The position numbers and the translations under genes are program-made. Below, piece after piece: positions 2,980-62,301 of a stretch of 64,000 bases of DNA (position 1 is the first letter of the stretch; each line of letters begins with the position of its first letter). The notes below the pieces were generated by a model. The model had not been told where the DNA came from. It saw only the letters and a list, made by a program, of their open reading frames with translations, and did not search any database. The stretch comes from Scenedesmus sp. ARA3 (lineage: Eukaryota > Chlorophyta > Chlorophyceae > Sphaeropleales > Scenedesmaceae), in assembly GCA_004335835.1 (NCBI GenBank), contig RWJK01001639.1, positions 37,226 to 101,225 of the forward strand. The letters are read 5' to 3'.

Positions 2980-4444
2980 ATGCATTCAGACGCCACACGC
3001 GCAGCATTCACGCTGTCGCTGGTTCACCAGCGAAGAGATGCCCGCCGCATGACAGCAGTGGCAGTCCTGCAAGGAGGGTCTAGGGTTTTCCTGGGCTTGG
3101 ACAACGGGGTTCTGGAGGAGCACCGCTGCGTTCCTGCAAGCGCAGCTGGGGCGCTGCCTCCTGCTGTTGCAGCTGCAGCGGGCGGCATGCTGGTGTTGCG
3201 GCTGCTTGCAGAGAAGAAAGTGATTAGCAAGGCAGCAGTGGCGGCGATATGTCCGGTGGAGGCAGCAGCGCGGCTGGTGTGCATGTCGGATGAGGGTCAG
3301 GTGAGGAGCGCCATGTCGTTTAGGATTGCTTGGTGTGATCACAACAGCAGCGGTAACTGCGGTACAGCTGGGCACAGCACATGTGTAGAATATGCAGGCG
3401 CGACCTGCAACTGGGGTGTAGCTAAGGCCAGCAGGGTTTGTTAGGCATGAGGCAGGGAGTGCTGCGCACAAAGCAGCATGAAGCAGCTACGCGAAGTGCT
3501 GACATAGTTCAACTCTGTGTTTACGCAACGGAAGCAGTCAAACAAGCAGTGCCTGCAGAGCGCGCATACATACTAGTAGCAGCCTGGTGATAAGCAGCCC
3601 GGCATGTATAGCACACACTGCTGCTGCCCTCCCAACTGACACAACTCCACCGCCACGCACATCTGCTTCCGACCTCACTGCTCCAGGTGGCCCTAGTTTC
3701 CTTGGGAGGAGTTTGCAGTGGCACCACTGCCAGCAGCACGAGGTGCAGCCGCTCTTGCAGTGCAGCACACCTGCTGCTCACCAACAAACCCACCCTCCAA
3801 TCCTCTGACACAATGACCGTCTACTAACACATGCGCCTGCCTGCCATCTACCCTGCTTCATCTGCAATTGCAATTGCTGCAGGTGGCCCTGGTATCCTTG
3901 GAAGAGTTTGCAGTGGCGCCGCTGCCAGCTGCACGAGGTGCAGTTGCACTCGCAGTGCAGCACAGCGCAGGCCTCCCGGTGCTGCTGGCAGTTGCTGTGC
4001 GTGCAGGCAAGGGCCGCAGCAAGGTGCTGCTGTTCAACGTGCTACCAGGAGCGAACCTGAGCAGCCACCAGCCGGCAGTGCTGCTGGCACAGGTGTGAGC
4101 AGCAGTAGCAGCAGCTGCAGCGGCAGCAGCAGCAGCTGCAAGCTACAGAAGAAAGCTATGCTGGTCACCGACATTTGCAACTTAGCAACGCTCGCTTGTA
4201 TCTTATGCTGTGTGATCACTGCATGCAGCCACTTCCCTGAGATGCGTCGCTCACCACTGCAGTAGCCGCTCCAAGAGTATCCTGCCAAGAGTATCCTGCC
4301 AACTCACCACAGCTGTCCCACTTCTTTTTCGGCTGCTGTCTAGGTGCCAGTGCCTGAAAGAGTGCTGGGCCTTGCATGGGCAGGTTCTAGCAGTGTCTCG
4401 CCTGACATAATACTGTTAACCTCACCACAGCTTCTTCATCTCCT

Positions 4445-4478
<34 letters not shown>

Positions 4479-7400
4479 CAGGTACCAGTGCCCCAGGCAG
4501 TGCTGGGCCTCACCTGGGCCGGCTGGCTTTCACAGCAACACCAGGTTCGACATCATAATATAGCTTTCGTACATCTCGTTGATGTGTTGTGCTTGCTGCT
4601 GCTGCTGCTGCTCCTGCTTTTCAGGTGCCAGTGCCTGAGGCAGTGCTGGGCCTTGCATGGGCCGGCTCCTCGCTGCTGCTGGCAGTGCCAGGCGGCTACC
4701 AAGCCCTACACCCCACATCCCCACACCTGCCAACCCAGCAGCAGCAGCAGGCTGTAGGGTATCGGCTGGTGGTGCTGGCTGATCACCTGAGCAGTATACA
4801 GCCGCTGCTGGGCAGCATTCCTGAGCAGGGGCTGGGGCTGATGCTGTGGGAGGAGAGCATGGTGCTGGTGACAGACGCGTCAGGTGCGGTCATAAAAACG
4901 TGCTCCTGGCTTTCAAGAATGCCTCGTTGAGGCCCTTACAAGTGGCTGTAGTTGGCTGTGTCTGCTGTGGGAGGAGAGCATGGTACTGGTCACAGACGCG
5001 TCAGGTGGGGAGGCACCTTGGCTTGCAGCACAATGTTTGCGGTACTCTTGCCTCTTTTGCGCGTGTGTGAAAACGCGTGTGCACATGTCTGTGTCAGTTA
5101 ACTTGCTTTGTTTGATAGCTGTGGGAGGAGAGCATGGTGCTGGTGACAGACGCGTCAGGTGAGGAGGCTTCCTAGCTTGCAGGACAATGTTTCTGGTACC
5201 TCTTCACGCGCGCGTGGGTGCATGTGAACCTGCGCGTGTGTCTGTCGTCTTCTGTTGTCATGCTGTGGGAGGAGAGCATGGTGCGGGTCACGGACGCGTC
5301 AGGTGCAGGCTGTGTTGTGCAGGGTGCAGGCCGACTGACTTTGGCTTGGACCCAAAGCTCTGTTTCTTTTCAACTTGTCTGCATGCGCTGCAGGTGCCGC
5401 TGTGCGCGAGCCGCTGCAGCTGCCCATGCCGCCTATTGCACTGGCAGCAGCAGGCCTCTTTGTGGTGGCGCTCTGTGATGACGGCGTGCACGTGTTTGAC
5501 CACACGCGCGGCAGCCGGGAGGTGCAGCACATTGACTTTGCGCATGATGATGCGTATGTGCGGCTCTCTGGGCGGCTGCCTGCTGCTGCTGATGCCAGTG
5601 GGCGGTGCATTTGCCTGGCTACCAGCAGCCAGGTGCTGCGGCTGGAGCCGGTGGCAATAGAGCAGCAGGTGCGAAGTTTGTTTCAGTGCTGCTTCCTGTT
5701 TGAAATGTGTGACATTCACATCACAATGTTGCTGATGCCAGCGGGTGGTGTATTTGCCTGGCCCCAGCAGCCAGGTGCTGCGGCTGGAGCCAGTTGCAAT
5801 AGAGCAGCAGGTGCGGAGGTTTCCTGTTGCTGCTGCCTGTTTGAAATATGTTACTTAACAATGTGACAGATGCGAGTGCGCAATGTTTATGCCTGGCTAC
5901 CAGCAACCAGGTGCTGCGGCTGGAGCCTGTGGCAATAGAACAGCAGGTGCGCAGGTTTTTGGTGCTGTGGCTGCCAGTTCACAGCGAGGTGTGGCAGTGC
6001 CGCAAACGGCAGCGAACTGCAGTGCTGGAGCCAATCACATGTTCTTTCAGCGGCATCGCCTGGACATCTGCACGGTTCTGTTGTGTCATGTCATCTCACG
6101 CCATCCATGCAATCACAACATTCTGTTGTGATCCTTGCAGGTGCGCGAGCTGCTAAAGCGCAAGCGGTTTGACCAGGCGCTTGAGCTAATCCATAATACA
6201 GCAGCAGAGGCGGCAGCAGCAGGCAGCAGCTCCCGCTCGGCATCTCCTTACCAGCAGCAGCTATCACCTAGACTGCTAGAATCTCCACAGCTGCCAGGCA
6301 CGCTGGAATCTGGAGGCGTTACAGCAGCAGTGACGAGGCGTCCCGCGTGGCACCAGGTTGCGCTAGCTCAGGCTGCGCTGCTGCTGCTGCTGGAGTGCGA
6401 ATGGGCTGCTGGTCTAGCGCTGCTGGAGGAGCTCGATGTGGCAACCTGGCAGCCCTGCCAGCTGTTTGGGCTGTTTCCTGCCGTGACGGCCAGGTGCGTT
6501 ATGTAACGTGTTATGTAACAGTCATTGAATCAAGTGGGCTGCTGGCCTGGCGCTGCTGGAGGAGCTGGAGACGGCAGCGTGGCAGCCCTGCCAGCTGTTT
6601 GGGCTGTTCCCTGCAGTGACAGCCGGGTTCGTTGTTTAACATGTAATGTAACAGTCATTGGTGTGAAAGGGTTGTTGGTTGGGTGCTGCTGGAGGAGCTC
6701 GATGTGGCGACCTGGCAGCCCTGGCAGCTGTTAGGGCTGTTCCTGGCATTGCCGATACCATCAATTGCTATTACCCTGCTGACACTATTCAAGTGCTTAA
6801 TAGTGCTTTGTGCTGTGATGATTGTATCCATTGCTGCTGCGGCTGCTGCTGCTGCTGCCAGGTGGCTCCCCAGCGTGCCTGCAAGGTCCTACTGGGGCCT
6901 GCACGGCCAGCAGCTGCCGGAGCTGAGCCAGCTTGTGACAGACATGCTGGAGCTGCGAGCAGCAACAGCACCTGTGCTGCAGCAGCAGCAGCAGCAGCAT
7001 GAGTCACACTGGATGCCCTCACCACGCAGCACTCAGCAGCAGCAGCAGCACTCGCCAGGCAGCCGCAGCAGCAGCGGCCGCCACCCGCACCCAAGCAGCA
7101 GCGGCAGCAGCGGCAGCCTCAGCAGCGGCGGCTACAGCAGCACGGTAAATCCTACCGAGGTTCAGGGCTTAGTCCTAGCTGCCAAAACCGCGGTCGCAGG
7201 GTACCTGAGCAGGGCTCGTACCCGGCCGGGGGTGGTGCTGCTAGATGGGATCGACACGCTGCTACTGCAGCTGCTGTGTGATGTTGGGGATGCAGCAGGC
7301 GTTGAAATGCTGCTGTGTGGGGCTCATGCTGCTGTGGCTGCTGCTGCTGCTGCTGCGCTGAGGGCCACAGGGCGGTGGCATGGCCTTGCGCTGCTGCAGA

Positions 7401-7878: not shown

Positions 7879-7923
<45 letters not shown>

Positions 7924-8596: not shown

Positions 8597-8632
<36 letters not shown>

Positions 8633-21043: not shown

Positions 21044-24000
21044 ATGCTCGTGCGGTGTGGGCAGGGTCGCCCAAGCAGTGCAGTGCAGCAGCGGCAGCGG
21101 CAGCAGCAGCTGTCAAGGCCATGCAGGCCACGCTTGTTGTTGCCAAGGCCAGTGAGGAATTCCAGGGCTGCTGGCAGCCGCAGATCCTTGCTAGTGAGGG
21201 CGAACTATGACAACTTTAATACGGAGTGAGTGCACGGCTGGCACTCAACCTGCTGCAGCTGCACACAATGTTCACATCAGCACCACATCACTCAGAGTAG
21301 TTGTATCAGCACCTGGGGCCTGGCAGCAACGCTGAAGCTTGGAACCATCCATACTTCACAGGCGTTGCAGCAGCAACAGCTACCACTGTGTGCACACGTA
21401 GGTTGCGGCGTCACAGCAACTGCCCATGCACCACTTGACAGCTGCACCACTTGACAGCTGCACCACTTGAGACCAACTCTCTGTAACTGCTGCTGCTGCT
21501 GCTGCTGGTGTAAACTCATGTTCAACTCATGTGTGACCCATGTTTGACCCGTGATTCCTGCAGCCTGCTGGGTCCACATTTCCACAACCGTGCCCGCATC
21601 AGTGAGGATGTCATGCAGTCGCTCATGGAGCTGCCGGGCACGACTGGCATTGCAGAGCTGCGGCAGCGAGCAGAGGACCTCACCACCTGGAAGATCAGCC
21701 TGCAAAGAGGGTGGGTACATCAATGCATGAGTTGAAACCTACGTAAGCACCTGGCCAATGTGCTTGGGTCGGTGTGTGTTGCTTGTGGTGCCGGGCAGCA
21801 CAAGGAGCTGTGTGTAGGCAGTGTGCAAACAGCAGCAGCAGCAGCGGCAGCAGCAGCAGCAGCCAGTCATTGATAGTCATGCAGTCGCTCATGGAGCTGC
21901 CAGGCACCACCGGCATTGCAGATCTGCGGCAGCGAGCAGAGGACCTCACCATCTGGAAGATCAGCCTGCAGCGAGGGTATGTTCCTTTTGTTTGCAGTAT
22001 GGCTCTTTTCAGTTTTAAGCAGTATGCTTGAGCTTGGGTGTCAAAGTGTTGCCTGGCACTGCCTGCACAAGCAACTTGCTGTGTGCTGCTTGGGTTTTTT
22101 TGACAAGGAGCAGCTGCCAGCGGCATGGAGCTGCCTGCAGGCAGCATGCAGCAACGGCAGCTGTCATATGATTAGTCATTGATGACTGGCAGCTGTCCCT
22201 GGCGTGCTAGTGTGGCACGCAAGTGCACACATTTGCTTGAGACTCGGGTGTGTGCTGCATTGCTGCTGCTGCTGCTGCTGCTGCTGCCTGCAGGGTGCTC
22301 CCTGAGCCTGAGCAGGTCAACTGGCCAGTAGAGCCCTTCAAGACAAAGTTCATCGTGAGCCATTAGCAGCAAGCACGGCAGCAGCAGCAGCAGCAGCAGC
22401 AACACCAGCATTGATAAGGAGTAGCTGGTCCACGGTGTTGGGAAGGCAGCATGAACGCTAGCAACAGCGACATTGGCAACAGCACGCTCTTGCTGCAACT
22501 CTACCCAACTGTACTGCCAGCCGTATTGCCACGCCGAGCAGCAGCAGCGGCAGCAGGGGCAGTTGCGGATGGCACAATGCTGAAAATAGTCACCAGGTGC
22601 CTTCAACGGCTCCTCAACACACAGAGAATCCGTGCTGTGCTGGCCTGCAGGACGCGCTGCGTGCGCTGGAGATGCCCCGCTTCACGCGGCGCTACCCGGT
22701 GGTGCTGGAGACGCTCATGAAGCAGATGCTGGCCATGGTGCATGTGAGTGATGGTGGAATGTTCTGATCGCAGGGCGTTGTGCAAGCAGGCTGCGTGTGT
22801 AGCGAATCAAGCCAGTGATGCAGGAGACCCTGATGAGGCAGATGCTGGCATTGGTGCACGTGTGGGCAGCATCTCTTGTGTGAGCTGGCGTGTGGCTGGC
22901 ACACCTCATGCTGTTGGGCCATAGTCGTCTGCTTAACAGGATTGGGCCAAGCAGCGTGCACAGTTGCGCATGTGTGCCATGTCACGCTTTTGCAACTCGT
23001 CATGTATCTTGCAGGATTTTGAGCTGAAGCTGCTGGAAGCTGAGGCCAAGCAGAAGCAGCAGCAGCGCCCGCCTCCGCAGCAGCAGGCGCAGCCGTCGCA
23101 GCAGGGCCAGCAGCAGGATGAGCCTGGGGACCAGGACCAGGAGCAGCAGGGGGAGGAGGGGCAGGAGGGAGGCGCGGAGCAGAGCCAGGAGCTAACGCAA
23201 GAGATGCTGGAAGAGGTGCGCAGTACAAGAGTGCTGACTAGTTTGACTGGTTTGACCTGTTTGACCAGTTTGACCGACAGAAAGATGGACGGGTTACTTC
23301 AGTGTGTTCTTGTAACATACACTGCGCTACATCCTCAAGGAGCAATGGAAGAATGAGAGGAGCAGTGGATTAGCAGGTGGGCATTTTGATGTTGAGGAGC
23401 AGTAGGAGGCTGGGGACCAGCACCAGGAGGGGCAGGAAGGAGGGGCGGAGCACAGCCGGGAGTTGACACAGGAGAGATGCTGGAAGAGGTGCGTGGTTCG
23501 AACCCTCAGACCAACATAAGAAGAAGTGTTGCATTATTAAGTGTTCTACAGGGGCGGAGCGAGCCAGCCTGCTGTTGCTGCTGTGGCTGGCTCTCAGAGC
23601 CGTGCAGGCTGCACCCGGCACTGAAGGACTCCAAGACCTAGCAGGGCCAGCAGGGGCGCCTGTCACCTCACATGTGCTGCTGCTGCTGCTGCCGCCGCTG
23701 CTGCTGCTGCCGCCGCCGCCGCTGCTGCTGCTGCTGCTGCACTTGCACCTGCATCAGGCGCTGAAGGACTCCATGAACCAGCAGGGGCAGCAGGGGCAGC
23801 AGGGCGGCAAGCAGATCCAGATCGGGCTGGAGGAGATGGAGGGCAAGCAGGCCGGCAAGGGAGAGTGAGTCGATGAGTTGTTGCTAGCCCCATAGATCTC
23901 TTGTCAGAACCAGACAGCACATGTAACGCTGACAGCTAGATACATCCCTGCTGGAGGAGATGGAGGGCAAGCAGGCTGGCAAGGGAGAGTGAGTGGCGTA

Positions 24001-27000: not shown

Positions 27001-28442
27001 CTGTGCGGTCTCGTCGGACATGTTGATTCCGTGTGTGTTCAACAGCGTGAGTGTAAAAAGGGTGTGGACATGCAGGTCGGGGCCTTGATCTCTTGATTGG
27101 CAGCGTGGCATGGAAACATCAGCTAGTTTGTTTGTCCACTGAGCTGCACGACATTTTGGGTTCTTTGATACCATACCCCGATTCTCGATCATCCCTGCTG
27201 CTGCTGCTTGCAGGAGATCCGCCCTGCAGCAGAAATGGGTCCAATCATCCTGTGTCTTGACACCAGCGGCAGCATGCGGGGTGCGCGTGAGTTGGTTGCA
27301 AAAGCGCTTGCGCTGGAGTGCATGCGTGGCGCGCACCGGCAGCAGCGGCCGTGCTACTTGTACGCATTCAGCGGGCCAGGTGGGTTGCAGGCAGGGGAGT
27401 GGATGAAGGACGAGACGATGTGAAGTTGCCGGCGAGATCACATGGCTTGTTTTGACTGGGGTGCAGGAGCTGGAGCTGTCACTTGACCTGCCCAGCGTGG
27501 ACAAGCCTTTCGCTACACCAGGCTGATGTGATCGGCTTTGTAGCATGCACGACTGTTGTGTGATGCCATGTACTCCACATGCTGGAATCCCTGCTTCAGT
27601 GCGGCGCAGGGCTGATGATCATGTTGCAATGGCTAAGCTGCTGACACTTTGTTGATGCTGGTGCCGCGCTGGCAATGAAAGCACACCCAGACCAAGTCAA
27701 GGAGCTGCAGCTGTCGGTGGACTTTCGGCCTGGACAAGTTTTCATCACATCTGATCGAACTTTAAGCTTTGAACTTTGACGTGTTGCTGCTGCGTTGCAC
27801 TACTGCTTACTGCTTACTGCTTGCAGACCAAGTGCAGGAGCTGGAGCTGTCTGTTGACCTGCCCAGCCTTGAGAAGCTGCTGGAGTTCCTCAGCTGCTCC
27901 TTCCAAGGGGGTACTGACGTGGACAAGCCGCTGCAGCTGAGCTTGGAGCGGCTCCAGAAGGACGAGTGGGCCAAGGTGAGGAGAATGGATTTGATGGCTG
28001 TTAGTAACAGCTGATAACTTTTTGAATTGGGTTTTCTGAAATGTGGGGTGGGGCGGCACGGACGTGGACAAGCCGCTGCAGCTCAGCCTGGAGCGGCTGC
28101 AGAAGGACGAGTGGGCAAAGGTGAGGGGGTTGTTACATTGTCAGTAACATTGTGAGGCGGTGGCGTGAGTTCGATGTGCAGTCATGCAGCTGTGCAGTGC
28201 AGGCGCTGCTGTCTGCTGCACAGCAGACGCGGCTGTGCATGCGCACCGCAGCTGCTTGTATATCAACCAACTGAACGATTGCGTGCACCGCTGCTGCTGC
28301 TGTCGCTGCATGCATCAGGCGGACATCCTCATGATTACTGACGGACAGATTGCACCACCAAATGAGAAGCTGCTGGCCGACATTGCTGCTGCTCATGACG
28401 AGCCAGCCGGATCTGATGTGTCACCGCTCCCACTTCCTCCTC

Positions 28443-39988: not shown

Positions 39989-40031
<43 letters not shown>

Positions 40032-40215
40032 TATCTGCAAGCAGCGCAATGCAAGAAGCTGCAGTGTAGCTTCTGCTATGGCTGCATTCAACGCGAATGC
40101 GCTGCAATCGACGCCTTTGTAGACGCGCATGGATGCTGCAACACCGACCAGGCCATCTGCAAGCGAGGTGATGTCATCCGCGATCACGCGAAGATACTTG
40201 TGACTACCTGCATCA

Positions 40216-40254
<39 letters not shown>

Positions 40255-44081: not shown

Positions 44082-46742
44082 TCACGTGCAGGTGCCGTCA
44101 AAAAACCGCGCAGCGCTGTTCACTGTGTTCTTCAGCAGCATGGCAATCGTCATGGGCCCCACTCCTCCAGGCACTGGCGTGATGGCTGCTGCATTTTCTT
44201 TGCACTCCTCGAATGCGCAATCGCCCACCAGCCGGTATCCGGCCTTCTTTGTGGCGTCATCCACTGGGTTGGTGCCGACATCAATGACAACTGCTCCCGG
44301 CTTGATCCAGGATCCCTGCAGGCAAGGATATGAAGATAATGTGTCCAAAACACGTGACGGCACGTGAGTCAAGAAATGCTAAGAAGCTACCGCACATGCT
44401 CTGCAGCTGTTGTGGCGTCATCCACTGGGTTGGTGCCCACATCAATGACAACGGCACCTGGCTTGATCCAGGGTCCCTGCAGGCAAAGGCAAGAAGAAGA
44501 CAATGTGTTGCACAACACGTGACGGCACATGAATTAGGACATGTCAAGAAGCTACCGCACATGCCCTGCAGCTGTTGATGCACCATCCACTGGGTTGGTG
44601 CCAACGTTGATGACAACTGCTCCTGGCTTGATCCAGCAGCCCTGCGGGCGAGAAGTGCAATACATGGCAACACACGTAAGCAATCCCCCACTGGGTTGGT
44701 GCCCACATCGCTGACAACTGCTCCCGGCTTGAATCAGGAACCCTGCAGGAGCGACGTATTCACACGCGGCAGCATATGCTGTCTACAACAGCAGGCATTG
44801 CACCTATATTCATATGGTGTGGCGCCTGCTGCACATCTCAATGCTGATGGCAGTAGGATCACGCCACTCACTCTTTGCACACATACACACACTCTTGCTA
44901 ACACTGCAGCAGTAGCAGCAGCAGCAGCCCACCTTGATCATCTCTGCCTGGCCAGCTGCCGCAATTACAATGTCCGCCTCCCGCACCACCTGCTCCATGT
45001 TCTGCGTGGCGCTGTGGCACAGGGTGACCGTCGCGTTGCGCTTGATCAGCAGCAGCGCGACAGGCATGCCCACAATGTTGCTGCGGCCGATGACTGCTGC
45101 GCGGCGCCCGGAGATTTGGGTGTTGGTGCGGTCAAGCAGCTCGATGCAGCCCAGCGGCGTGCAGGGCACAAACAGCGGCTCGCGGCCCTGCAAAAAGTGC
45201 AGGCAAGATGCTTGTCAACACTAGGCAGTCATCGGCAGAATCGGCAAGACTTGTTGTGATCTAGCTTGGTGCCAAGGCCGGCATGAGCTGCCAGCTGACG
45301 TTGCCAGCACATCACTGTCTGGGTATCATACAGGTGTGTGTATATGCCGGTCCATGAATGTTATGCAACATGTTACATGACAATTGGTACCGTGTCTGCC
45401 TGTTAGACGCACAGTCATGCACAGCTGGCCCATGTTGAGCGGGTAGAAGCCGTCCACGTCCTTGTCCACTAAGATGTTATGTAACATGTTACATGACATT
45501 TCAAACCATGTCTGCCTGTCACGCGCACCTTCATGCAGAGTCGCCCCATGTTGAGTGGGTGGAAGCCGTCCACGTCCTTGTCCACTGAGATGTCGTGTAA
45601 CATGTTACATGACAGATCAACCATGTCTGCCTGTCACGCGCACCTTCATGCAGAGCCGCCCCAAGTTGAGCAGGTGGAAGCCGTCCACGTTCTTGTTCAT
45701 TGAGAAGTTCAGTAACATGTTACATGACATTTGAAACCATGTCTGCCTGTTGAACGCACCTTCATGCACAGCCGCCCCATGTTGAGCGGGTGGAAGCCGT
45801 CCACGTCCTTGTCCACGCTGATTGCTGCCAGCACCAGCTGCTCATCAATGTGCTTGGGCAGCTGCACAACATATCAGCATACATCGTGCCGTTCAAGTAG
45901 ATGTATCCAGTGATTATGAACAGCAAATGTACGCTGATTGCCGCCAGCACCAGCTGCTCATCAATGTGCTTGGGCAGCTGCACAATGCATGCAGTGGCAG
46001 ACAGTGTCAATGCAGAGGTAAAGGGTTGGTGCTGAGTTGTGCCAGCCTTGGTAAACAGCAAGTGTGCACACCACTGAACCTGGGTACGCTGCAGAAAGGC
46101 TTGCGCTGCGAGAGCTGAATGCACAAAGTCTAACAATTGCCGCCCTGCACCCACACAATGTGTTTTTTGATGTGGTTTCTGCGACAGCTTATTTCTGTCT
46201 CCTTGCCTGTACAGCTGCTGCACCACTGGCACGGCTCCGTCTGCTGGCCTGCAGCGCCCCAACAGCCTCACTCACCGGCAGCTGCACCAGGATGCCATGC
46301 ACATTGGGGTCTGCATTGAGCTGCGCTACAGTGTCCAGCACCTCCTGCTGCGTTGCTGTCTCCGGCAGGTCTGCTCCAAAAGAGGCAATGCCAACTTCCT
46401 CGCATGCCTTTTTCTTCATGCGCACATAGGTTTGTGAGTCTTTGCGCTCTCCAACGATCACAACAGCTAGACCAGGAGCCTGCATTGGTGAAGAATGATT
46501 GATGTTCAAGCAGTCATGCTATCAAAGATTGTGAATGTTTCCAGGAGCTGTGCAGGAAGGCAGTACCCGCTGCTGCTGGTGGTGGTGCTGCTGCTGCTGG
46601 TGATGGTAGTGCTGGGGCGCACCTTGCCATGCTTCTCCTTCAGCAGATTGACTGTGGCTGCCACCTCTGCACGTATCTGGGCTGCTACTGCCTTGCCATC
46701 TAGGATCTTGTCGCTCACGAATGGCGTGCTGCTGTCTGCCAT
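44082..46742 (-). CDS. FOLD: FolD: methylene-THF dehydrogenase/cyclohydrolase
   Basis: Bifunctional one-carbon enzyme converting 5,10-methylene-THF to 10-formyl-THF with NADP. Five exons (46623-46742, 46276-46479, 45760-45861, 44933-45187, 44082-44315) total 304 residues, the usual FolD length. Visible active-site landmarks: the conserved YxxxK ([16 protein letters not shown]), [29 protein letters not shown], the Rossmann segment [14 protein letters not shown] and [15 protein letters not shown]. No transit peptide is evident (start [16 protein letters not shown]), so the protein is likely cytosolic. Introns 3 and 4 carry several copies of exon 3 and exon 5 ends. It is divergent from CCDC40, with 359 bases between starts. 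Confidence 0.95.
44400..44750 (-). repeat. Three copies of FolD exon 5 5' end
   Basis: In minus sense each copy has an acceptor CTGCAG and the segment coding [20 protein letters not shown] or variants. They lie at about 44407-44482, 44577-44642 and 44688-44745, upstream (gene sense) of true exon 5 at 44315. The variants keep several conserved residues but lose the frame or end early. Confidence 0.9.
45355..45735 (-). repeat. Three copies of FolD exon 3 3' end plus donor
   Basis: The segment coding [19 protein letters not shown] with its donor recurs at about 45415-45470, 45530-45590 and 45650-45705, period ~118 bases, downstream (gene sense) of true exon 3. Each unit also holds a palindromic ATGTAACATGTTACAT-like motif (45357, 45474, 45596, 45711). 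Confidence 0.9.
45928..45985 (-). repeat. Copy of FolD exon 3 5' end
   Basis: GCTGATTGCCGCCAGCACCA, GCTGCTCATCAATGTGCTTG and the acceptor GTGCAG copy the start of true exon 3 (45820-45866), coding [15 protein letters not shown]. It lies upstream in gene sense. Confidence 0.9.
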
Positions 46743-50100: not shown

Positions 50101-53058
50101 GCTTGCACAATCTCGGGGGGTTCATCGCTGTTCATGAGCTGCTGTACGTGTTTATATTTCTGCATGTAAATGCATGGAGAGTCAAGGCAATTGTTGATGG
50201 TCGACAAAACGAGGGTTGCAAGATCGCATGGTTGCTTGCAGAAGCACGGGTTGTTGCAGTAGCATGGGAGTTGGCGGCAAAACATGCTGATGGATAACCT
50301 GCTGCTGCTGCTGCCGCAGGATGCCTCCATCGCCAAGTACGAAGTGGAGCTGAAGCGGCGCACTGATGAGATTGAGCGCAAGACGCGCGAGACGGATGCA
50401 CTCAACAGGAAGCTGGAGAAGCTACTGGCTGCACAGCCAGGTGAGCGCATGTGCTGGGGAAGCTTGCATCACCCAGTTGTAGGGAAGCAGCACTCGTGCG
50501 CATGCACCACTCCACCAGACAGCATAGCCCCACACATCCTGCTCTGCATACTGCTGCTGCCGCTGCCGGCTGTTGTGGCTGCAGAGGCCATCAACACTGG
50601 GCCGCTTGAGGCCACCATCCACAACCTGGGCAAGGACATTGAGGCCAAGGGCCGCGAGGGCTTGGAGCTGCAGCGGCGCTGGATCAACAGGCAGACAGAG
50701 CTGGTGGCGCTGCAGGTGCATGCAGCTGCATGACCATGCATGCATATGGCAAGTGTGCTTCAGCGGGCTGGCACGTGCTGGCGTTTTGGCTGTTGCTTTG
50801 TTGTGAGCAGCCGACATCGGCCAAACTTGTTACGAAAACATTGTTTTTTTTTCTGTACATAGTCTCAGCACGTCGAACAATCTTGCCTGCCTGTTGGCGT
50901 GCTGCTGTGTGCTTCAGGCTGAGAACAACACGCTCACAGAGGCGCTGGCGCGCCACAAGGCCGAAGTAACAGTCCTGACGCAGAAGCGCAGCAGGGCAGA
51001 GCGCGCGCTGGCAGGCCAGCTCAAGGAGGCCAAGGCGCTGCGCACGGCAGCAGCGCGGCTGCAGGTGGACCTGGGGCGCGTGAACGCGCTGATCGCGCAG
51101 CACGCGGGGCTCAAGGCGCTGCTGCAGGAGGAGCAGCTGCAGCTGGAGGTGAGCTGGCGGTCATGTGATTGAGGTTGCAGCACTTTAGTGTAGAGTGGTG
51201 CAGGCTGCGGGGAGCTGCCCCCTTTGATGGGTTGGCGGAGCTGCTGCAGGAGGAGCAGCTGCAGCTGGAGGTGAGCTGGCGGTGCGGCAGTGCAGCGAGA
51301 AGAAGTTCACAGCAGTCTGCAGGGCCTTTCAATGCAGGCATCATCACGATTGCGGGAAGCACATTGCAGTGTCATGCCATGCATTGACGCCTGACATTCC
51401 CAGCACATGACTCACCCTGTTTATCGCTTGGCCAAACCGCAGGGCCGTGCGCTGTGTGAGCTGCGCAGCCTGGAGGAGACGTCTGCGGCGCTGTCCAGCG
51501 CCATCCAGGAGGGGCAGCTGGCCAAGCAGCAGCTGCTGGACGACATGGTGGAGGCGGAGCGCCAGATCATGCTGGCGGAGCGCAAGATCCAGCTGGAGAA
51601 GGAGATGCAGGCGCGGCCTGGTTGGCAGCACTCTCTTAGCCATGCGAGCCTTGGTACATGCAGCGCAGCAAGGAATGAGGCAGGATCAGTTCTCGGCGCT
51701 GCAGTGTTGGGGCTTGCATACAGGACCAACCGCAACACCGTTGTCAAATATGTTTTTTTCTGCTGCTTGTGGCTGCTGCAGGAGATGCTGGACCCCACAG
51801 TCGGCGAGGGTGTTGTGGCGGCCATGAAGCGCGAGGTGCACCGCATGGAGCTGCGGCATGCGGAGCTGCTGCGCACACAGGAGCGCCTCATGCAGGTGGG
51901 GCAGCAGCAGCTGTTGCAGCTGGCTCTGCTCTAGTGATGCATCTGCTGTGTTTGGCATCAGCACCTATGCCTGCATGCCCATAAAGGCTGGGTCACCTGC
52001 CAGCTGAAGCTTTTGGTGGCTTTGTGAGACATGCGCGTGGTTGGTTGAAGCCCCTAGTACTTACAAGTGCTGCTGTCCTGACCAACAGGAGCTTGAGAAG
52101 GCCCTCAGCAAGCATGAGATCATCGGAGTGAAGGCCCTGGCCCAGAAGACCAAGGCCAGCCCCAGCAGCAGCAGCAGCGGCAGCCCAGGGCGCAACTCCC
52201 CAGCTGCCCGCAGCTCCACATGCAGCAGCCCAGGCGGTAGCAGCAGCAGCAGCACCTCCAGCAGGGCCATTTCGGAGTTCAAGCGGGGCATAAGAGAGAC
52301 TGAGGCCGAGGCAGCAGCAACGCAGCAGCGGCTGCAGCAGCTGCGGGACAGCAAGGCGCAGCTGGAGGCGGCGACAGGCGGCGCTGCTGCTGCGTGGCGG
52401 CAGCTGGAGCAGGAGCAGGCGCAGCTGCGGGAAGAGACGGCGCAGACGCAGGCAGACAGGTGGGTGTTGCAGGCATCCTGCAAAGGTGGCTGGAACAAGC
52501 AGCATCAACAGGACAAGCGGAGTACAGATGTGGATGTGGGACGCCCTGGTTTGCTACTGTGAAGACCGGTTGAAATGTCGTTGATGTACATCATCCTCCA
52601 CATAGCGCACTGTTAATTGCTGTTACAGCAGCTATTGCAGTTGCTGCTGCGGCTGTCTACAAAACCATAGGTGATCAACTGACCTGTCACGTGCGGCATC
52701 CTGGCTGTGTTGCATTATTTGCAGGCACAAACTGCTGCTGGCAACAAGCCAGCTGCAGCGCATTGCCAAGGGCCTGGAAGATGCAGCAGCTGGGCGCTAC
52801 AAGAGGCAGATAGACCCCAGCACCGCAGCGCAACAGCAGCAAGGCAGCAGTGCAGAAGCAGCCAGCAGCAGCGCCCAGGTGCAAGCTGCTCTGGCAAAAG
52901 CAGCAGACAGGCAGTCACAGCTAGTAGCTGTGTTGCAGCAACTGCGGCACCAAGCGCCAGAGCTGCAGGAGCAGCTTGAGGGGGTGCTGGCACACGCAGC
53001 AGCAGCTGAGGTGTGGCTGGGAAGCGAAGGAAGTGCAGCTGCTGTCACTGCGCATTGA
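47102..53058 (+). CDS. CCDC40: CCDC40/FAP172 axonemal ruler coiled coil
   Basis: Sixteen exons (47102-47299, 47465-47593, 47797-47871, 48114-48296, 48536-48717, 48876-48987, 49220-49399, 49616-49805, 49968-50077, 50320-50440, 50585-50715, 50918-51148, 51443-51610, 51782-51895, 52089-52459, 52725-53058) give 942 residues in one frame. It is coiled coil almost throughout. The N-terminal signature fits the CCDC40 family: MDPDHPMLQRAQQALARQL, then EDVGVELYGFQQNLAKLQM. CCDC40 pairs with CCDC39 to form the 96-nm ruler that sets radial spoke and inner dynein arm spacing on axonemal doublets. A Ser-rich insert (TKASPSSSSSGSPGRNSPAA) sits in exon 15. Exon 13 appears to end at a GC donor (CAG/GCGCGG). 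The family is certain enough; Chlamydomonas FAP172 is the expected ortholog. Confidence 0.85.
51219..51277 (+). repeat. Copy of CCDC40 exon 12 3' end plus donor
   Basis: GCTGCTGCAGGAGGAGCAGC, TGCAGCTGGAG and donor GTGAGCTGGCGG occur at the exon 12 end (51117-51160) and again at 51238-51281, about 121 bases later. Confidence 0.9.
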
Positions 53059-54411: not shown

Positions 54412-57392
54412 TCAGGCCCAGCAGCAGCGGCACGACGCAGGGTGGAGCAGGAAGCGGCAGCAGCAGCACTGGTCAGCAGTACTACTGCTGAGCAAGGCAG
54501 CAGTAGCAGCAGCAGATACAATTCACCATATTGCTGCAATTGGTTGCAACATGCGTTGCTATCTGCTCACATGTCTCTCTCTAAAACGCTGTTATATCTA
54601 AAGCCTGCCCTGCAATCCATGCATGCGCGCAGCATGCATGAACAGCAACAATGCTTGCCATGCCCCAACCCAATTCGCGTCCTTTCCTCAACACATAGTG
54701 CTGCCCATCTTGCAACACATGCTACACCAACCACATGCGTGTGCGCTTTGCAATTGGCCTCATGCACTGCAGGCTGTCATCGGAGCAGGCCCGGCAGGCC
54801 TTGCTGTAGCACAGCAGCTGCTGCAGGAGGGCCATACTGTGGTGCTGTTTGAATCAGGGCCTGCATTGGGAGGGGCATGGGCCTTTGACAGCAGCACAGA
54901 CAGCGACCCATTGGGACTAGACCCATCCAGGGTCAAAGTGCACAGCAGCATGTGAGTGTCACTCACAACAGCAGTGCGGCTGGTGCATGTAGTGGTAGAC
55001 AGCTGCAGTGGGTGGGGCCTGGGCATTTGACAGCAGCATTGACAACGACCCATTGGGACTAGACCCTGCAAGGGTCAAAGTGCACAGCAGCATGTGAGTG
55101 TTATGGCAGTGGATTGCCTTGTACAGCATATGTGCGGCGGGGGCATGTAGTGGTAAACGGCTGCACTGGGAGGGGCCTGGGCCTTTGACAGCAGCAGTGA
55201 CAGCGACCCATTGGGACTGGACCCTGCAAGGGTCAAGGTGCACAGCAGCATGTGAGTGCCATTCACAGCAGCAGTGCGGCTGATGCATGCAGTGGTAACC
55301 AGCTGCAGTGGGTGGGGCCTGGGCCTGTGACAGCAGCAGTGACAGCGGCCCTTCAGGGCTGGACCCTGAAAGGGTCAAAGTGCACAGCAGCATGTGAGTG
55401 CCTCTCACAGCAGCACTGCGGCTCGTGCATGTAATGGTAATAGCTGCAGTGGGTGGGCCCTGGGCCTTTGACAGCAGCACTGACAGTGACCCAGTGGGAC
55501 CAGACCCTGCAAGGGCCAAAGTGCACAGCAGCATGTGAGTGCCACTCACATCAGCAGTGCGGCTGGTGCATGCAGTGGTTATTAGCTGCAGTGGGTGGGG
55601 CCTGGGCCTTTGACAGCAGCACTGACGACGACCCATTGGGGCTGGACCCTGTAAGCGCCAAAGTGCACAGCAGCATGTGAGTGTTATGGCGGTGGATTGC
55701 CTTTTACAACATGTGTGCGGCGGGGACATGCAGTGGTAGACAGCAGCAGTGGGTGGGGCCTGGGCCTTAAAAGGCTGCTGTCAAAATTGACAGCAGCACT
55801 GACAGCGGCCCATTGGGACTAGACCCTGCAAGGGTCAAAGTGCACAGCAGCATGTGAGTGTTACGGCAGTGGATTGCCTTTTACAGCATGTGTGCGGCGG
55901 GGGCATGTGGTGGTAAATAGCTGCAGTGGGAGGGGCGTGGGCCTTTGGCAGCAGCAGTGACAACGACCGATTGGGACTAGACCCTGCAAGGGTCAAGGTG
56001 CAGAGCAGCATGTGAATGGTATGGCAGTGGATTGCATTTTATAGCGTATGTGCGGCTGGTGCATGCAGTTGTAATAAGCTGCTGTGGGTGGGGCCTGGGC
56101 CTTTGACAGCAGCAGTGACAGCGGCCCTCTGGGGCTAGACCCTGCAAGGGCCAAAGTGCGCAGCAGCATGTGAGTGCTATGGCAGTCAGCTGTGCTTGTG
56201 CATGGCTGTTATGTGCAGCAGTGGATGCAGGCAGCTGTATGTGTATGTGTTAGTTGCGGAGTTTAAGCACTCAGCAGCATCCCAACACTATGGCAGTCGC
56301 ACCATGTATGTGGATGGTGTGAGCGGCAGCTGCATACAGGCAGCTGCACATGTACACGCGATTCGCATCAACTGTACACCGGCATGCGAGATTGCAGGTG
56401 CACTGTGTGCATGTACATAAGGGCGTTGTGTTTGATGCTGTGCAGGTATGCCTCATTGCGCACCAACCTGCCCCGAGCGCTGATGACGTTCATCGACTTC
56501 CCCTTTATCCCAGCAGCAACGGCGGGGCGCTCAGCAGACCCCCGCATGTACCCGCTGCACACAGAGGTGCGAATTTGGACATTCAATCCTATGGTGCTGC
56601 ATGTGTCTGTTTGAGGTGGCATCTGTGTGGCTAGTTGCACGTCTTGCAAGTCATGTGGGAGCTCGACTGACCCCCGTATGTACCCGCTGAACACTGAGGT
56701 GGGCATGCATGGCCACCTACGGTGCGAATGCAGGTGTGCCATGTCTGTTGGCATGTCTTGTTGCCTTTATATGAGGAATGTGGCTGTGCCTGCATGCAAT
56801 GCACACTGGGGTAAGGTACGCACCAAATGCTCATTGAGCCATTTGGGTGAGGTATGCACAGCCCGCATGTACCCACTGCACACTGAGGTGGGCATGCATG
56901 GCCACATAAGGGGCAATTGCAAGATCAACTTGTCTTTTCGCGTGTCATGTTGCCCTGTTTGTGAGTTATGCGGCTGTGCACTGAGGTGGGCATGCATGGC
57001 CTTGACATACGGCGTGTGTCTGTGTGCCATGTAATTGTGCATGTCTGGAGCTAGCCCGTTGCAACTTTTGCAAGCCACGTGGCTGCTGCTGCTGCTGCTA
57101 CTGCGATGCGTGCTTTGACAGCTGCTGCAATCAGCACATGCAGGTTCAGCTGAGTAGTAAGCAACGCTACTAAGGGCCACCCATGTGTCCTGCTGCAGGT
57201 GCTGGCGTACCTGCAGGCCTTTGCAGAAACCTTTGACCTGAACAGACACATCCAGCTCAACACAACGGTGATGCGCATCGACCCAATGCTAGCCCAGCCA
57301 GCAGCAGCAACAGCTGCAGCAGCGTGTGTCACACAACACGGAGAAGCTTGCTGCACACCATGCATGGCAGGTGCTGGGTTCTCTGCTGGAAA

Positions 57393-57427: not shown

Positions 57428-59741
57428 TCTTCCCCTTGGCGCCGGGGCAGGAAGTGAAGTGGAGGGTAGTGATACAGAGCAGCATAGCCAGCAGCAGCTG
57501 CAGCAGCCAAGGTGGTAGCGTGCCGTCAGCAGCTGCTGGCACACATGAAAGCACCGCCACGCAATCAATGCAGGTACAGCGGCAGGAGCAGCAGCAGGAG
57601 CAGCAGCAGGATCAGCAGCAAGAACAGCAGCGAATACAGCAGCAGCAGCAGCAGCAGGAGTGGCTGTTTGATGCAGTGGCTATCTGTGTGGGCATCTTCA
57701 GTGAACCAAACCTGCCTCAGGTCAGTCAATGCAGGCGTCCCTGTACAATTGCGTCCCATTACACTCAAAGTGGTGCTGTTTCTGCTGCAAGTCTGCAATG
57801 CTTGCAAAGTTGTGGCTGCTGCAGCGCATAACATGTTAGTATCCTTGCACTGCAACACACTGCACTGCATTACTCTGCTCCAGCTGGTGTGCTGAACTTG
57901 CTGGGGTACAGCTGCACAGCCACAAGCTGTGCTGAAGTAAGCAGCAGGTGCTGTTTCAAGCAGCCAGCCAACTCACTGATCAAATGCCTACATTTGCTTC
58001 TGCAGGTGCCTGGCATGGCCGGCTGGGCTGGTTTTTGCAGCTGCACAGCCACAAGCTGTTTCAAAGTAGGGTTATTCACCAACCAACAGCAACCAACGAC
58101 CTCCTTACTCTGTGACCTCTGCTTGGTTCTGCAGGTGCCTGGCATGGGCGGCTGGTCCGGCCTGCAGCTGCACAGCCACAAGCTGTGCTGTCCCAAACTA
58201 GGGTGCTAAACACCATTTCAAGCAGCCAACCAGCCACCTCCTTACTTCCGTAACCTGTCCTATGTTCTGCAGGTGCCTGGCATGGCCAGCTGGCCTGGCC
58301 TGCAGCTGCACAGCCACAAGCTATGCTAAAGTGCAGTTGCACGCAACCGTCTCAGTAACTTTGATGCATACGTATTGTTCAAATTTTGCTTGTTTGCAGG
58401 TGCCTGGCATGGCCGGCTGGCCCGGGCTGCAGCTGCACAGCCACAACTACCGCAGCCCCGAGGCCTTTAAGGGGCAGCGCGTGATGGTGGTGGGCGCGTC
58501 ATTCTCAGGTGACAGGCGTGTGAGGAGTTGTGCATTCGAGGCTTCATGACGCGCATGTTCTGTGTGATGCAACCCTGAAACCAGTGTGTTGCAGCACTCC
58601 CGACACTCAGCACCAGATGTTTGCATGCAGGCTGTGCATGCTCCAGAGATATATGGTGCCGTCAGCTGTACCTCAGGTCTCAGAGTATTGAATAAAACCG
58701 ATTTCGTGTGGACTGGCTGAACAGCTGCTGCCCATTGCTGCAGGCGAGGAGATCGCACGTGCAATTGCCTCACATACGCAGCAGGTGTACCACTGCGCAC
58801 GCACCTTCACAGGCCCCGGCACAGCTAGAGAGCAACCAGCAGCACAACCAGGCAACAGCAGCAGCAGCAGCAGCAGTGGCCTGGTACATCAATTTGCACT
58901 TAGTCCAGAGCAAGAGAAGCTGTGCCAGCAACATCAGCTCGGCTGCCAACATTCAAGCACACTGCTCTCCACGCTGCAGCAGCAAGAAGAACAAGACTCA
59001 TGTGGCCAAGCAGCAGCAGCAGCAGCAGCAGCAGGGGTGCCGCCAGCTTCCGAGCCCCGCAGCAACATGCAGCGGCTGCCGATGCTGCAGCAGCTGCTGC
59101 CTGACGGGTCAGCTGTGCTGCAAGATGGGCAGGTGCTGCGGGGGCTTGATGCTATTGTGTACTGCACCGGCTACAGGCACACATATCCTTGGCTGGAGCA
59201 TCTGGGCCTTGTTGAGACAAGTGAGTGTGGTGCGATTGCTGTACATGGGCAGTGATTTGAGCCTTAGGATATGCCTGCTGCCTGGATGCTGTTGTGTACT
59301 GCACCGGCTGCAGGCACACCTATCCTTGGCTGGAGCATCTGGGCCTGGTTGAAACAAGTGAGTGTGGTACATTTGCTGTACATGAGCAGTGTTTTGCGCC
59401 TTAGATATACCTGCTGCCTGGATGCTAGCGTGTACTGCACTGGCTACAAGCACACCTATCTTTGGCTGGAGCATCTGGGCCTTTTTGAGACAAGTGAGTG
59501 GAGTACGCTTGTTGCACATGGGCAGTGTATTGCGCCTTCGGGCATGCCTGCTACCTGCCGCACTTGTTTTCTGCTGTAGTTGCTGCTGTTGTGAGCAACA
59601 GTCTGTGCTTTTGCTTGTCAGGCAATGTTGACTCTCACGTGCTGCTGCTGTATCCGCACACCTTTTGCTTCAGGCTGTTGGTCTAGTCCCAGTCACACAT
59701 GTATAAGCCAACAACCGCTGCTGCTGCTGTTGCTGCTGTTT

Positions 59742-59775
<34 letters not shown>

Positions 59776-61649
59776 CGCAGGCGACTGCCATGTGCGGCCG
59801 CTGTTTCAGCACATGTTTGTGCCGACAGTCGGACCCAGCCTGTCTTTTATAGGCCTGCCGTGGCGCTGCGGAAAGATGCCTCAGTTCCAACTGCAGGGGC
59901 AGCTGCTGTACACACATATGACTCTCCAGGTGGCTCGTTTAGTCCCAAAATACAATCTGCAAGCCTGACACACTTCCGTGCACTAAACCACAGCCGCCAC
60001 CGCCGCCGATGCTGCTGCTGCTGCTGTGTCCTGCTTGCGCAGGTGATTGCCATGTGTGCCCGCTGTTCCAGCACATGTTTGTGCCGTCAGTGGGGCCCAG
60101 CTTGTCTTTCATAGGCCTGCCGTGGCGCTGCGCAAAGATGCCTCAGTTCCAACTGCAGGGGCAGCTGCTGGCACGGCTGCTATCAGGCAGGGCATGCCTG
60201 CCTTCTGCTCAGCAGATGATGCAGGTGAGCCATGAAATGACGTGCTTCTGCAGTGTGGCTTGGCACTGCATCTGAACTGGCCAGCAATGGTTGCGGTACC
60301 ACCTGTATTGCATGTGTGGCTGCTGCTGGTGGGTCGACAGCTCATCGGGCAGTTGAGGAGAAGATGGTACTGTTTGCCTCAGTGCCAGTATAGCCAGCTG
60401 CAGGGGCAGCTGCTGGCACGGCTGCTATCAGGCAGCGCGCAGCTGCCTTCTGTGCAGCAGATGATGCAGGTGAGACTGCTGCTATGCCATGTGATGTAGC
60501 GTTGCATGCCGTTGTGTGAGGGTTCAGAGCTATTATGGTGTTGTGCCATTTCAGACTGTGTGTGCAGTTGCCGCTGATGGCTTGGCAGATTATCGGGCAG
60601 TTGAGGCGATGACAGCAATAGCTTGCCTGAGTTCCAGCTGCAGGGGCAGCTGCTGGCACGACTGCTGTCTGGCAGGGCACAGCTGCCACCAGCACAGCTC
60701 ATGTTGCAGGTGAGAGTGCATTTGAACATATACCTTGTAGCAAGCCCGGCTCTGTCAAAGTTGTGTAGATAAGGACGATTCTAAGCATGGTAAAAGCATA
60801 ACTGCGCACCTTCAAGCAACGCTGTGTGTACAGCCGGGCGTGGCAGCACGTTATCCTTGCTTGGTGGGGTCAAAGGTCCTGCTGCAGGGGCGGCTGCTGG
60901 CACGGCTGCTCTCCGGCAGGGCATGCCTGCCTTCAGCACAGCAGATGATGCAGGTAAGAGTGCATTTGAATACACTGTGTACCAAGCCCGGCTCTGTGTA
61001 ACGGTGTGTGACAACTGCGGCAGCATCTTTGCTTTGCTTGGCATGCCTGCCCCCAGCGCAGCAGATGATGCAGGTGGGGATGAGGGATGAATTGCCTGCC
61101 ATTGCATGACAGATTGACGGCCTCATGCTCACTACATTGCATAAATGCGTAGAGCTGGCTGCCGCCGGCGACTTCGCACAGCAACAAACAACTTCAAGCC
61201 AAGTTGGCTTGAGCAGCTCAGAGTACAATCAATCACTCTACATAACTAAGCCTGTGTGTGTACATGTGTGTGTACTTATGTACTGCCACCCGCTGGCCTG
61301 CCGCAGGCGCAGCAGCAAGCTTTTGAAGTCATGGCAGCAGCCGGCATCCCTCGCCGCTACTCGCACTGCATGGCAAAATTCATGCCTCAGGATGAATGGG
61401 CTTATGCTGAGGCGCTGTGCCGCCTAGCAGCAGGTGATACAGAGGACCAGCAGCAGCAGCAGCGGCGGCAGCAGCAGCAGCAGCAGCAGCAGTGCCAGCA
61501 TGCCGGGGTAGGTGGCAGCAGCCTCAGCTGCGGCTGCAATGGCGCACACAGTAGTGTGCAGTCTGAGACAGCCTACGGGCTGCCAGCAGCAGATGCGCAG
61601 CATGCAGACCTCCTTCGGGACTTGCAACAAGGTGATGCAGCAGTAGGAA

Positions 61650-61691
<42 letters not shown>

Positions 61692-62301
61692 GTGGTATGC
61701 TGGTGATGCCTTGGTGGCTGCGGGCGCTGGCTGCTGAAGTGGCGGGTGACATCCTCAGCAGGCCAGACAGCTTCAGGTGAGGCAGTGTGTTGTTGGCTGT
61801 TGGGTGCCACCTTGACAACGTCATACACATTCAGAAGCTACAAGAGTAACCTCGCCCATTGAGGAGCCAATGACAACGTCATGCGCAGTGTGCCAGGCGT
61901 ACTTTGCACTGCACACCTGATGCTGCGGCAGATGCACTGCGCATACATGCAATGCGCATCAGTGGGTCGTGTATTTAGTACCCAACAGTTGACGGTTGGC
62001 ACCACCCGTGATTGAAGTTGAGATGACTGTTGACTCTGCTCAGGCGTGCTGCGCTCCTGCTGCTGTTGACCTCTGTCAGCAAAGCCTGGCTGCCAAAGCC
62101 ACGATCATCAGACGATGCTTTATACAGGCAGCTGCCCAGGCGTTTGACAGCACATTGGCGCTACCTGCCTGCCTGTCTGTCTGCAGGGACAGCTGGAGCG
62201 ATGCTGTTGAGCAGCGCATGCAGCAGGCGGACCGAGAGATGGCATACTTGTGGCATGAATTGTGCAGTGCTGTTCCAGCCCTCGAGGGAGCCACAGAGTA
62301 G
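54412..62301 (+). CDS. Flavin-containing monooxygenase (5' end unresolved)
   Basis: Class B FAD/NADPH monooxygenase that would oxygenate nucleophilic N or S atoms. Exons 54773-54951, 56446-56566, 57199-57720, 58400-58508, 58744-59220, 60043-60224, 61307-61776, 62187-62301 add 724 residues in one frame; a first exon ending ARRR at 54441 probably precedes, but its start codon was not found. FAD site VIGAGPAGLAVAQQL, substrate loop VHSSMYASLRTNLPR, FMO-type segment GLQLHSHNYRSPEAFKGQ, NADPH site VMVVGASFSGEEIA, C-terminal LDAIVYCTGYRHTYPWLEHL. It is longer than plant FMOs (about 450-530) because of Gln/Ser tracts in exons 57199-57720, 58744-59220 and 61307-61776. The substrate is unknown. It is the gene richest in junction repeats. 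Confidence 0.85.
54885..56175 (+). repeat. Nine-unit array of an FMO exon end plus donor
   Basis: The segment coding GGAWAFDSSTDSDPLGLDP.RVKVHSSM plus donor GTGAGTG occurs once as the real exon end (to 54951) and eight more times, starting near 55008, 55168, 55313, 55450, 55592, 55751, 55927 and 56087. Periods are about 137-175 bases; unit 7 has a ~20-base insertion. Units are highly similar and many stay open through the coding part. Confidence 0.95.
56655..57005 (+). repeat. Three copies of the next FMO exon end
   Basis: The segment coding DPRMYPLHTEV with donor GTGGGCATGCATGG (true end 56566) recurs at about 56668-56700, 56860-56890 and, shortened, 56970-56990. Confidence 0.85.
58004..58330 (+). 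repeat. Three acceptor-side copies of an FMO exon
   Basis: TGCAG followed by the segment coding VPGMAGW.GLQLHSHK occurs at 58006, 58134 and 58272, before the true exon at 58400. Copies are about 130 bases apart. A decayed fourth (GCTGCACAGCCACAAGCTG) is at 57909. Confidence 0.9.
59268..59515 (+). repeat. Two donor-side copies of an FMO exon end
   Basis: The segment coding DA.VYCTGY.HTYPWLEHLGL plus donor AAGTGAGTG (true end 59220) recurs at about 59284-59357 and 59424-59495. Confidence 0.9.
59735..59930 (+). repeat. Acceptor-side near-full copy of FMO exon 60043
   Basis: After a long CTG run, an acceptor (TTCGCAG) and the segment coding DCHVRPLFQHMFVPTVGPSL through PWRCGKMPQFQLQGQLL copy ~140 of the 182 bases of the true exon. 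The frame stays open for most of that. It lacks the original donor end. Confidence 0.9.
60390..61078 (+). repeat. Four copies of FMO exon 60043 3' end
   Basis: The segment coding LQGQLLARLLSGRACLPSAQ, then QMMQ with GTGAG donor (true end 60224) recurs at about 60399-60470, 60638-60712, 60885-60955 and, shorter, 61046-61073. Confidence 0.9.

Follow-up and report, generated by a model that had tools for sequence, protein, structure and literature searches.

Here, we focus on a 64-kb stretch of DNA (hereafter the window) from the green alga deposited as Scenedesmus sp. ARA3, and particularly on the partial copies of exon edges that populate the introns of its genes. The window is a piece of a 127-kb contig, in an assembly of 87.3 Mb and 1567 contigs. 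The product of its VWA gene is identical to the Tetradesmus obliquus protein OEZ85_005847 at 635 of 636 residues, and the top match of its eIF3l gene is likewise a T. obliquus protein, so the host is T. obliquus or a very close strain. A first-pass annotation had described exon-edge copies in seven genes of the window: Vps39, VWA, eIF3l, MYND, FolD, CCDC40 and FMO. Five of them (VWA, eIF3l, FolD, CCDC40 and FMO) could be checked and do show the polarity detailed below, over a total of 45 introns and 90 junctions. For Vps39 and MYND, what stands is the presence of repeats; their exons are without a protein check, and both genes are excluded from every junction count.

The exon limits were obtained by spliced alignment to proteins for VWA (with P0241 and P0242) and for eIF3l (with P0001 and P0002), while those of FMO come from P0148 and P0135, with several boundaries set by hand. 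The exons of FolD and CCDC40 are draft models, supported by their match to solved homologues (4a26, E 2e-98, for FolD; Chlamydomonas FAP172, 7ju4, E 2.8e-209, for CCDC40). A sixth gene, on contig C1396, had its exons checked with the T. obliquus protein P0129. The genome was sampled rather than fully counted, by means of the window, 20 loci on other contigs (187.5 kb, including 8.9 kb of N) and selected gene families. A hidden Markov model (HMM) gene finder over-predicts here, because exon-edge copies resemble exons, and it recovers just 0.53 of the FMO exon bases; the exons that it predicts in the 20 loci, the frames of which are less certain, were used solely for a count by codon position. 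Low-complexity repeats (7 of 206) were dropped, as were the 21 of 96 families whose exonic columns numbered below 24.

Exon edges copied into adjoining introns

In the five window genes and the C1396 gene together, the adjoining intron holds a copy for 34 of 110 exon edges, and the position of the copy depends on the edge. The five window genes provide 28 cases of an edge copied in a given direction (12 in VWA, 6 in eIF3l, 6 in FMO, 3 in FolD and 1 in CCDC40), in which the repeat blocks hold 26-128 bases of exonic sequence. The downstream blocks touch the exon 3' edge in 16 cases out of 16 and the upstream blocks touch the exon 5' edge in 11 out of 12, the twelfth beginning 5 nt inside the exon; the polarity is also as expected in all 6 cases of the C1396 gene. 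No exon-exon repeat was found in the five checked genes. When copies are anchored on the 90 junctions, the donors have 22 copies downstream and 1 upstream, and the acceptors have 10 upstream and 1 downstream; both exceptions are read as the shift of one alignment across FolD exon 3 by one register (115-116 bp). The splice dinucleotide, GT or AG, is retained in 33 of these 34 copies. Near direct repeats cover 37% of the intron bases of the five genes, and in internal exons they cover 31% of the bases at most 20 nt from an edge and 7% of those more than 60 nt away.

A motif test that is free of annotation gives the same orientation for donors. The donor motif is found at the right end of 20 blocks and at the left end of 4 (interior control 8.0), and, in the reverse sense, at the left end of 8 and the right end of 1 (control 4.3), that is, 28 times at the expected end and 5 times at the opposite one. 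The acceptor motif GCAG is found at 8 left and 17 right ends in the forward sense (control 11.7), which runs opposite to what acceptors alone would give, and at 8 left and 16 right ends in the reverse sense (8.0); this motif is uninformative here, because exons often end with CAG before the donor.

Beyond the window, the chaperonin genes contain 25 overlapping pairs of exon matches, located on 4 of 12 contigs. Twelve pairs have a common 3' end with the longer match upstream and 10 have a common 5' end with the longer match downstream, although several of these 22 pairs of the expected classes are also copy-copy pairs, the real exon being told by length alone. The remaining 3, with a common 3' end and the longer match downstream, are read as copy-copy, and none of the 25 combines a longer exon upstream with a common 5' end. 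The class I tRNA synthetase genes add five further pairs of the expected type, recognised by eye, on 2 of 8 contigs.

The repeats are almost exclusively direct and are regularly spaced. Self-comparison of the window yields 57 direct and no inverted near repeats (spacing below 1500 bp), and the 20 other loci yield 93 direct and 5 inverted ones, some of them CAG-rich, against 2 direct and 1 inverted when the same loci are shuffled in 25-mer blocks. Of 199 filtered pairs, 165 are offset by less than 400 bp, with 76 of these at 100-169 and 50 at 200-289. Nineteen tandem arrays are built of whole units repeated every 100 bp or more, and 9 of these arrays have periods of 120-139; the periods of 17 arrays fall within 111-185, and the other two, 231 and 281, are near double. 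Finally, the spacing from the real edge to its copy is 100-170 bp in 22 of the 34 cases of the six genes. Direct orientation, closeness and regular spacing, here with a peak at 100-170 bp, are the features of head-to-tail duplication. As a side observation, the real-copy spacings of the 34 nearest copies (a list typed by hand) leave a remainder of 2 on division by 3 in 20 cases, of 1 in 8 and of 0 in 6, which may be chance. Dense clusters of near direct repeats were also noticed in four of the other loci (L024 at about 2-4.5 kb, L011 at about 1.5-4, L012 at about 5.5-7.8 and L027 at about 8.4-10 kb), where the exons are HMM-predicted.

Exon-edge copying is confirmed as real, one-sided and present beyond the window. 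The first-pass annotation had proposed tandem duplication across splice junctions with a fixed polarity, and this holds against the inverted and the shuffled counts as well as on both strands (FolD on the minus strand, the other checked genes on the plus strand). Its tally of more than 40 relic units is matched by our own list, drawn up partly by eye, of 47 copies for the five checked genes (29 of donors and 18 of acceptors; see also Table 1). A share of such units in intron growth is supported too, and the decoy splice sites that it expected are likely. It passed over the lack of significant intron-side homology in 16 of 51 comparisons, the spacing peak at 100-170 bp and the apparent partial protein constraint on the copies, all treated here. 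As for the habit being genome-wide, its presence on other contigs stands for the sample, which took the place of a full genome count.

Table 1. Exon edges and their copies in the window (positions in the window; single numbers are copy junctions unless stated otherwise)
Feature	Position	Strand	Remarks
FMO exon 1 (from first aligned base)	54773..54951	+	3' 91 bases and donor are the source of the following array
FMO intron 1 array, downstream exon 1 3'-edge copies with donor (8)	54952..56240	+	periods 142-177 bp
FMO intron 1 copy junctions	55094, 55252, 55394, 55535, 55677, 55854, 56012, 56170	+	eighth by eye
FMO intron 2, exon 2 3'-edge copies	56567..57046	+	first 56657-56701, donor 56699
FMO intron 3, upstream exon 4 5'-edge copies with acceptor (3)	57901..58399	+	58006, 58135, 58273
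FMO intron 5, 2 downstream copies of exon 5 3' edge	59221..59557	+	59358, 59494; period 137
FMO intron 5, upstream exon 6 5'-edge copy	59743..59908	+	acceptor 59781
FMO intron 6, downstream exon 6 3'-edge copies	60393..61075	+	60470, 60710; relics near 60956, 61073 by eye
eIF3l intron 6, 2 downstream copies of exon 6 3' edge	33472..33797	+	33615, 33776; first is 33555-33614
eIF3l, upstream exon 7 5'-edge copy	34249..34307	+	acceptor 34254
eIF3l, downstream exon 7 3'-edge copy	34553..34641	+	donor 34604
eIF3l, downstream exon 3 3'-edge copy	31504..31561	+	donor 31554
eIF3l, upstream exon 5 5'-edge copy	32032..32073	+	acceptor 32035
eIF3l, upstream exon 8 5'-edge copy	34926..34955	+	acceptor 34930
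FolD intron 3, 3 downstream copies of exon 3 3' edge	45350..45759	-	45643, 45528, 45412; period about 116
FolD intron 2, upstream exon 3 5'-edge copy	45931..45985	-	98% identical
FolD intron 4, upstream exon 5 5'-edge copies	44410..44757	-	44641, 44476; third near 44739 by eye
VWA, downstream exon 2 3'-edge copy	21876..21978	+	93%
VWA, downstream exon 4 3'-edge copy	22812..22862	+	
VWA, downstream exon 5 3'-edge copy	23425..23493	+	
VWA, upstream exon 6 5'-edge copy	23609..23657	+	
VWA, downstream exon 6 3'-edge copy	23950..24040	+	
VWA, upstream exon 7 5'-edge copy	24356..24395	+	
VWA intron 7, made up mostly of repeat blocks	24623..25487	+	exon 7 3'-edge copies 24823, 24949, then exon 8 5'-edge copies 25105, 25231, 25357
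VWA, downstream exon 8 3'-edge copy	25993..26213	+	26071
VWA, upstream exon 12 5'-edge copy	27461..27506	+	block begins 5 nt inside exon
VWA, downstream exon 12 3'-edge copy	28052..28126	+	91%
VWA, upstream exon 13 5'-edge copy	28290..28403	+	acceptor 28319
CCDC40, downstream 3'-edge copy of exon 50918-51148	51237..51283	+	98%
Two tandem arrays in the gene called Vps39 in the first-pass annotation	5591..6743	+	periods 136, 133; exons without protein check

Elsewhere in the window, three related genes with long open frames, which are candidate BTB-like genes, occupy 12708-20853 on the minus strand, and a fragment that runs the other way opens the window (1-886, plus strand); few tandem repeats are found in either. 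Many long CAG/CTG runs are also present (7880-8631, 37874-40290 and others), several of them encoding poly-Q, poly-A or poly-S within long open frames.

Duplication, selection and the alternatives

The explanation that we regard as probable is that of recurrent short head-to-tail duplication combined with selection. Short duplications, typically of 100-170 bp per unit, would accumulate in T. obliquus; those confined to an exon, or comprising an entire one, would break the protein and be lost, while intronic ones and those taking in a single junction would be kept, because the splice site beside the intact remainder of the exon would still yield the old mRNA. A duplication crossing a donor would leave a copy of the exon 3' edge and its donor further down the intron, and one crossing an acceptor would leave a copy of the 5' edge and its acceptor further up, after which unequal exchange between copies may lengthen the arrays, the outermost splice site being presumably the one used. 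Tandem order and purifying selection would thus suffice to produce the strict polarity, without any need for targeting. The introns would grow and fill with spare splice sites, mostly decaying and sometimes used. Splicing itself probably remains intact, to judge from the ortholog proteins. At the DNA level, the cause might be, for example, replication slippage, or break repair in which staggered ends are filled in; the small tandem duplications described at DNA breaks with complementary ends (PMC8355091) offer a candidate of this kind. The units are nucleosome-sized, a length that may point to a link with the nucleosome.

The behaviour of the intronic parts of the units bears directly on this explanation. 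In a tandem-unit test on both sides of the junction, homology on the intron side is significant in 35 of 51 comparisons. In the best-aligned 8 of 18 copy-copy pairs, chosen by an intron alignment of at least 53 bases, which favours well-aligned introns, 383 of 447 positions are identical on the intron sides and 411 of 469 on the exon sides; this equal decay of both sides is free decay. Significant intron homology is found in 12 of the 18 pairs.

Several observations weigh against recurrent duplication with selection as the full account. In the other 16 of the 51 comparisons, the exon side matches, at 91-98% in several of them, but homology on the intron side falls short of significance, and across all nine multi-copy arrays the copies are identical to each other at 1644 of 1919 positions on the exon side (0.857) and at 1106 of 1692 on the intron side (0.654). 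This one-sidedness counts because simple tandem units should share both sides. Eleven of the 12 families that do not span a junction stop 2-7 nt past the real splice site. The copies are also unevenly spread: CCDC40 has a copy at only 1 of its 26 edges, no overlapping pair was found on 8 of the 12 chaperonin contigs, and no clear copy appears in the C350 paralog among the matches of P0133 in its own gene. Finally, the differences between real exons and copies number 36, 24 and 112 at codon positions 1, 2 and 3 (in 570, 570 and 567 sites), so that the ratio of positions 1 and 2 to position 3 is 0.27 (95% confidence interval 0.20-0.33), below 0.5, the lowest value open to free decay of a copy whose parent exon is fully constrained.

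This third-position excess is one argument for a rival explanation, according to which many of the copies are working alternative exons that keep their coding sense and splice sites while the spacers drift. Adding the sixth gene gives differences of 53, 36 and 148 and a ratio of 0.30, and changes seen only in the copies number 19, 20 and 36 at the three positions (p 0.024). In a wider set based on HMM-predicted exons, comprising the 75 of 96 families with at least 24 exonic columns, the differences are 149, 130 and 386, although some of these families may be true protein repeats. Base composition was rejected as the cause of the excess, since intronic rates predict 0.164, 0.177 and 0.159 at the three positions (from alignable stretches only). 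Gene conversion was ruled out as the cause of copy conservation by argument alone, because it would lower all codon positions alike, without a third-position excess. This signal points to protein-level selection acting on some of the copies, now or at some time in their past. Working alternative exons would also account for the exon sides of copies being more alike than their intron sides, for homology often stopping at splice sites, and for the preservation of GT in 29 of the 29 listed donor copies and of AG in 16 of the 18 acceptor copies, with a mean splice-site score of 5.8 in the copies that keep their site vs 6.7 in real sites. One copy even appears as an exon in a public gene model: the T. 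obliquus eIF3l protein P0001 has 20 extra residues that correspond to copy 33555-33614, with GTGCAG at the acceptor and GTGAAC at the donor, and that are missing from the proteins of four related algae (P0002-P0005). Either the copy is used or the gene prediction was misled.

Nevertheless, we find it unlikely that many of the copies work in this way. With the best partner splice site, 17 of 47 copies would form an in-frame cassette, which is no more than chance, and in-frame cassette exons were rejected on this ground. A cassette or mutually exclusive exon would be a complete copy, with two sites and in frame, whereas the copies here are partial. Moreover, in families with three or more copies, the copy-only changes are nearly even (10:12:15), at least one copy contains an in-frame stop (near 25357), the public VWA model P0241 takes in none of the VWA copies, and the arrays that align end to end decay equally on their exon and intron sides. 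We would likewise give little credit to the broader proposal that duplicated exon edges are spliced in enough to come under protein-level selection, so that a nucleosome-sized and junction-favouring tandem duplication would act as a self-renewing source of alternative exons.

Some observations on gene models and transcripts can be set beside these results. Other gene models of the species may, like P0001, take intronic copies as exons. Two transcript-derived VWA records, P0323 and P0352, break off immediately beyond exon 6 or exon 5, as though the donor had been read through; each of the two donors concerned is copied further downstream in the present genome. For one gene of the species, under its synonym Scenedesmus acutus, a publication reports alternative and retained-intron transcripts, with no mention of exon copies in the passages considered (PMC12899622).

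A second rival explanation holds that the copying process itself prefers exon edges, with breakpoints at splice motifs, be it through short shared CAG/GTGAG sequences or through a process linked to transcription or splicing. It draws on a looser count, in which 27 of 28 families contain exonic bases and either cross a real splice site or stop at most 7 nt from it, while random units of the observed sizes would do so in 44% of cases with the present introns and in 60-68% with shorter ancestral ones; it would also explain why homology in blocks of 90-98% identity breaks off immediately after the splice site. This looser excess may reflect a mutational preference, or it may come from detection, as a constrained parent exon keeps exon-bearing copies recognisable for longer than intron-only ones. 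A strict random-shift test, in which the repeat must extend at least 8 bp to either side of the real junction, counts 16 of 28 families as junction-spanning, vs 13.9 expected (P 0.24). The targeting of junctions was rejected for want of an excess in this test. As homology in addition continues into the intron in most comparisons, a preference of the copying process for exon edges seems to us more doubtful still than working alternative exons.

Two further explanations carry very little weight. An assembly artefact, or collapsed haplotypes, might be suspected in a draft of this many contigs, with the window known from the assembly alone, but it is very improbable: repeat blocks differ by about 2-30%, array copies differ among themselves, direct repeats far exceed inverted ones, and the extra exon of P0001 places one copy in a public T. 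obliquus record, which may stem from this or another assembly. A mobile element or introner, which the similar length of repeats in many introns could evoke, is hardly credible, since the exon-edge families of the checked genes derive from the adjoining exon and since the one intron-only unit searched for in the genome, an 89-bp repeat present four times within introns 5 and 6 of eIF3l (32446, 32704, 32963 and 33943), gave at least 4 matches, all of them in this gene. In exon-edge copying as a whole, an orderly and widespread feature, a specialist's attention is best given to the size preference, to the way homology breaks off at splice sites and to the signal by codon position.

Known systems and intron growth

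Tandem duplication is well known as a source of new introns (PMC4974935, PMC2891723). In the potato RdRp gene (PMC4974935), where intron-exon structure was copied, and in the Drosophila cases (PMC2891723), short intragenic tandem duplications likewise pass on splice signals. In those cases, however, a new intron arises, classically from an exonic AGGT, whereas here partial exon copies settle in existing introns and are missing from the ortholog proteins. The AGGT model starts from the duplication of an exonic segment, whereas the copies here are intronic and extend to a junction already in place (no search was made for AGGT as such). A case cited in PMC4974935 also involves the frequent duplication of gene segments with splice sites, but in our genes single junctions are copied, the polarity is fixed and the units are often near 135 bp. 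Direct repeats at intron-exon borders have been described too (PMC11782384); these are of 4-30 bp and are read as insertion footprints, whereas the exon-edge copies are longer and often stand several in a row. As with tandem alternative splice sites (PMC8055015), extra donors and acceptors are found near the real site, but here the putative sites belong to duplicated exon edges and are some 100 bases or more distant. We recognised no account of such exon-edge copying in green algae in the open-access literature, considered mostly through titles and the beginnings of abstracts. What is distinct here is that existing junctions are copied, giving longer introns with spare sites, densely in several genes and with a narrow unit size.

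The introns of T. obliquus have a mean length of 462 bp, against 230 bp in Raphidocelis, 302 in Monoraphidium, 284 in Chromochloris and 270 in Chlamydomonas, four other green algae (PMC5966456), and it is plausible that the duplications cause this greater length. Intron growth is mostly explained by transposons and slow drift; if genome-wide, the duplication of exon edges would be one of the main ways in which introns lengthen in this alga. The many near-perfect copies of splice sites would also offer a natural test of how the spliceosome chooses among them, and they constitute a practical hazard for annotation, as gene models may take copies for exons, which P0001 may have done.

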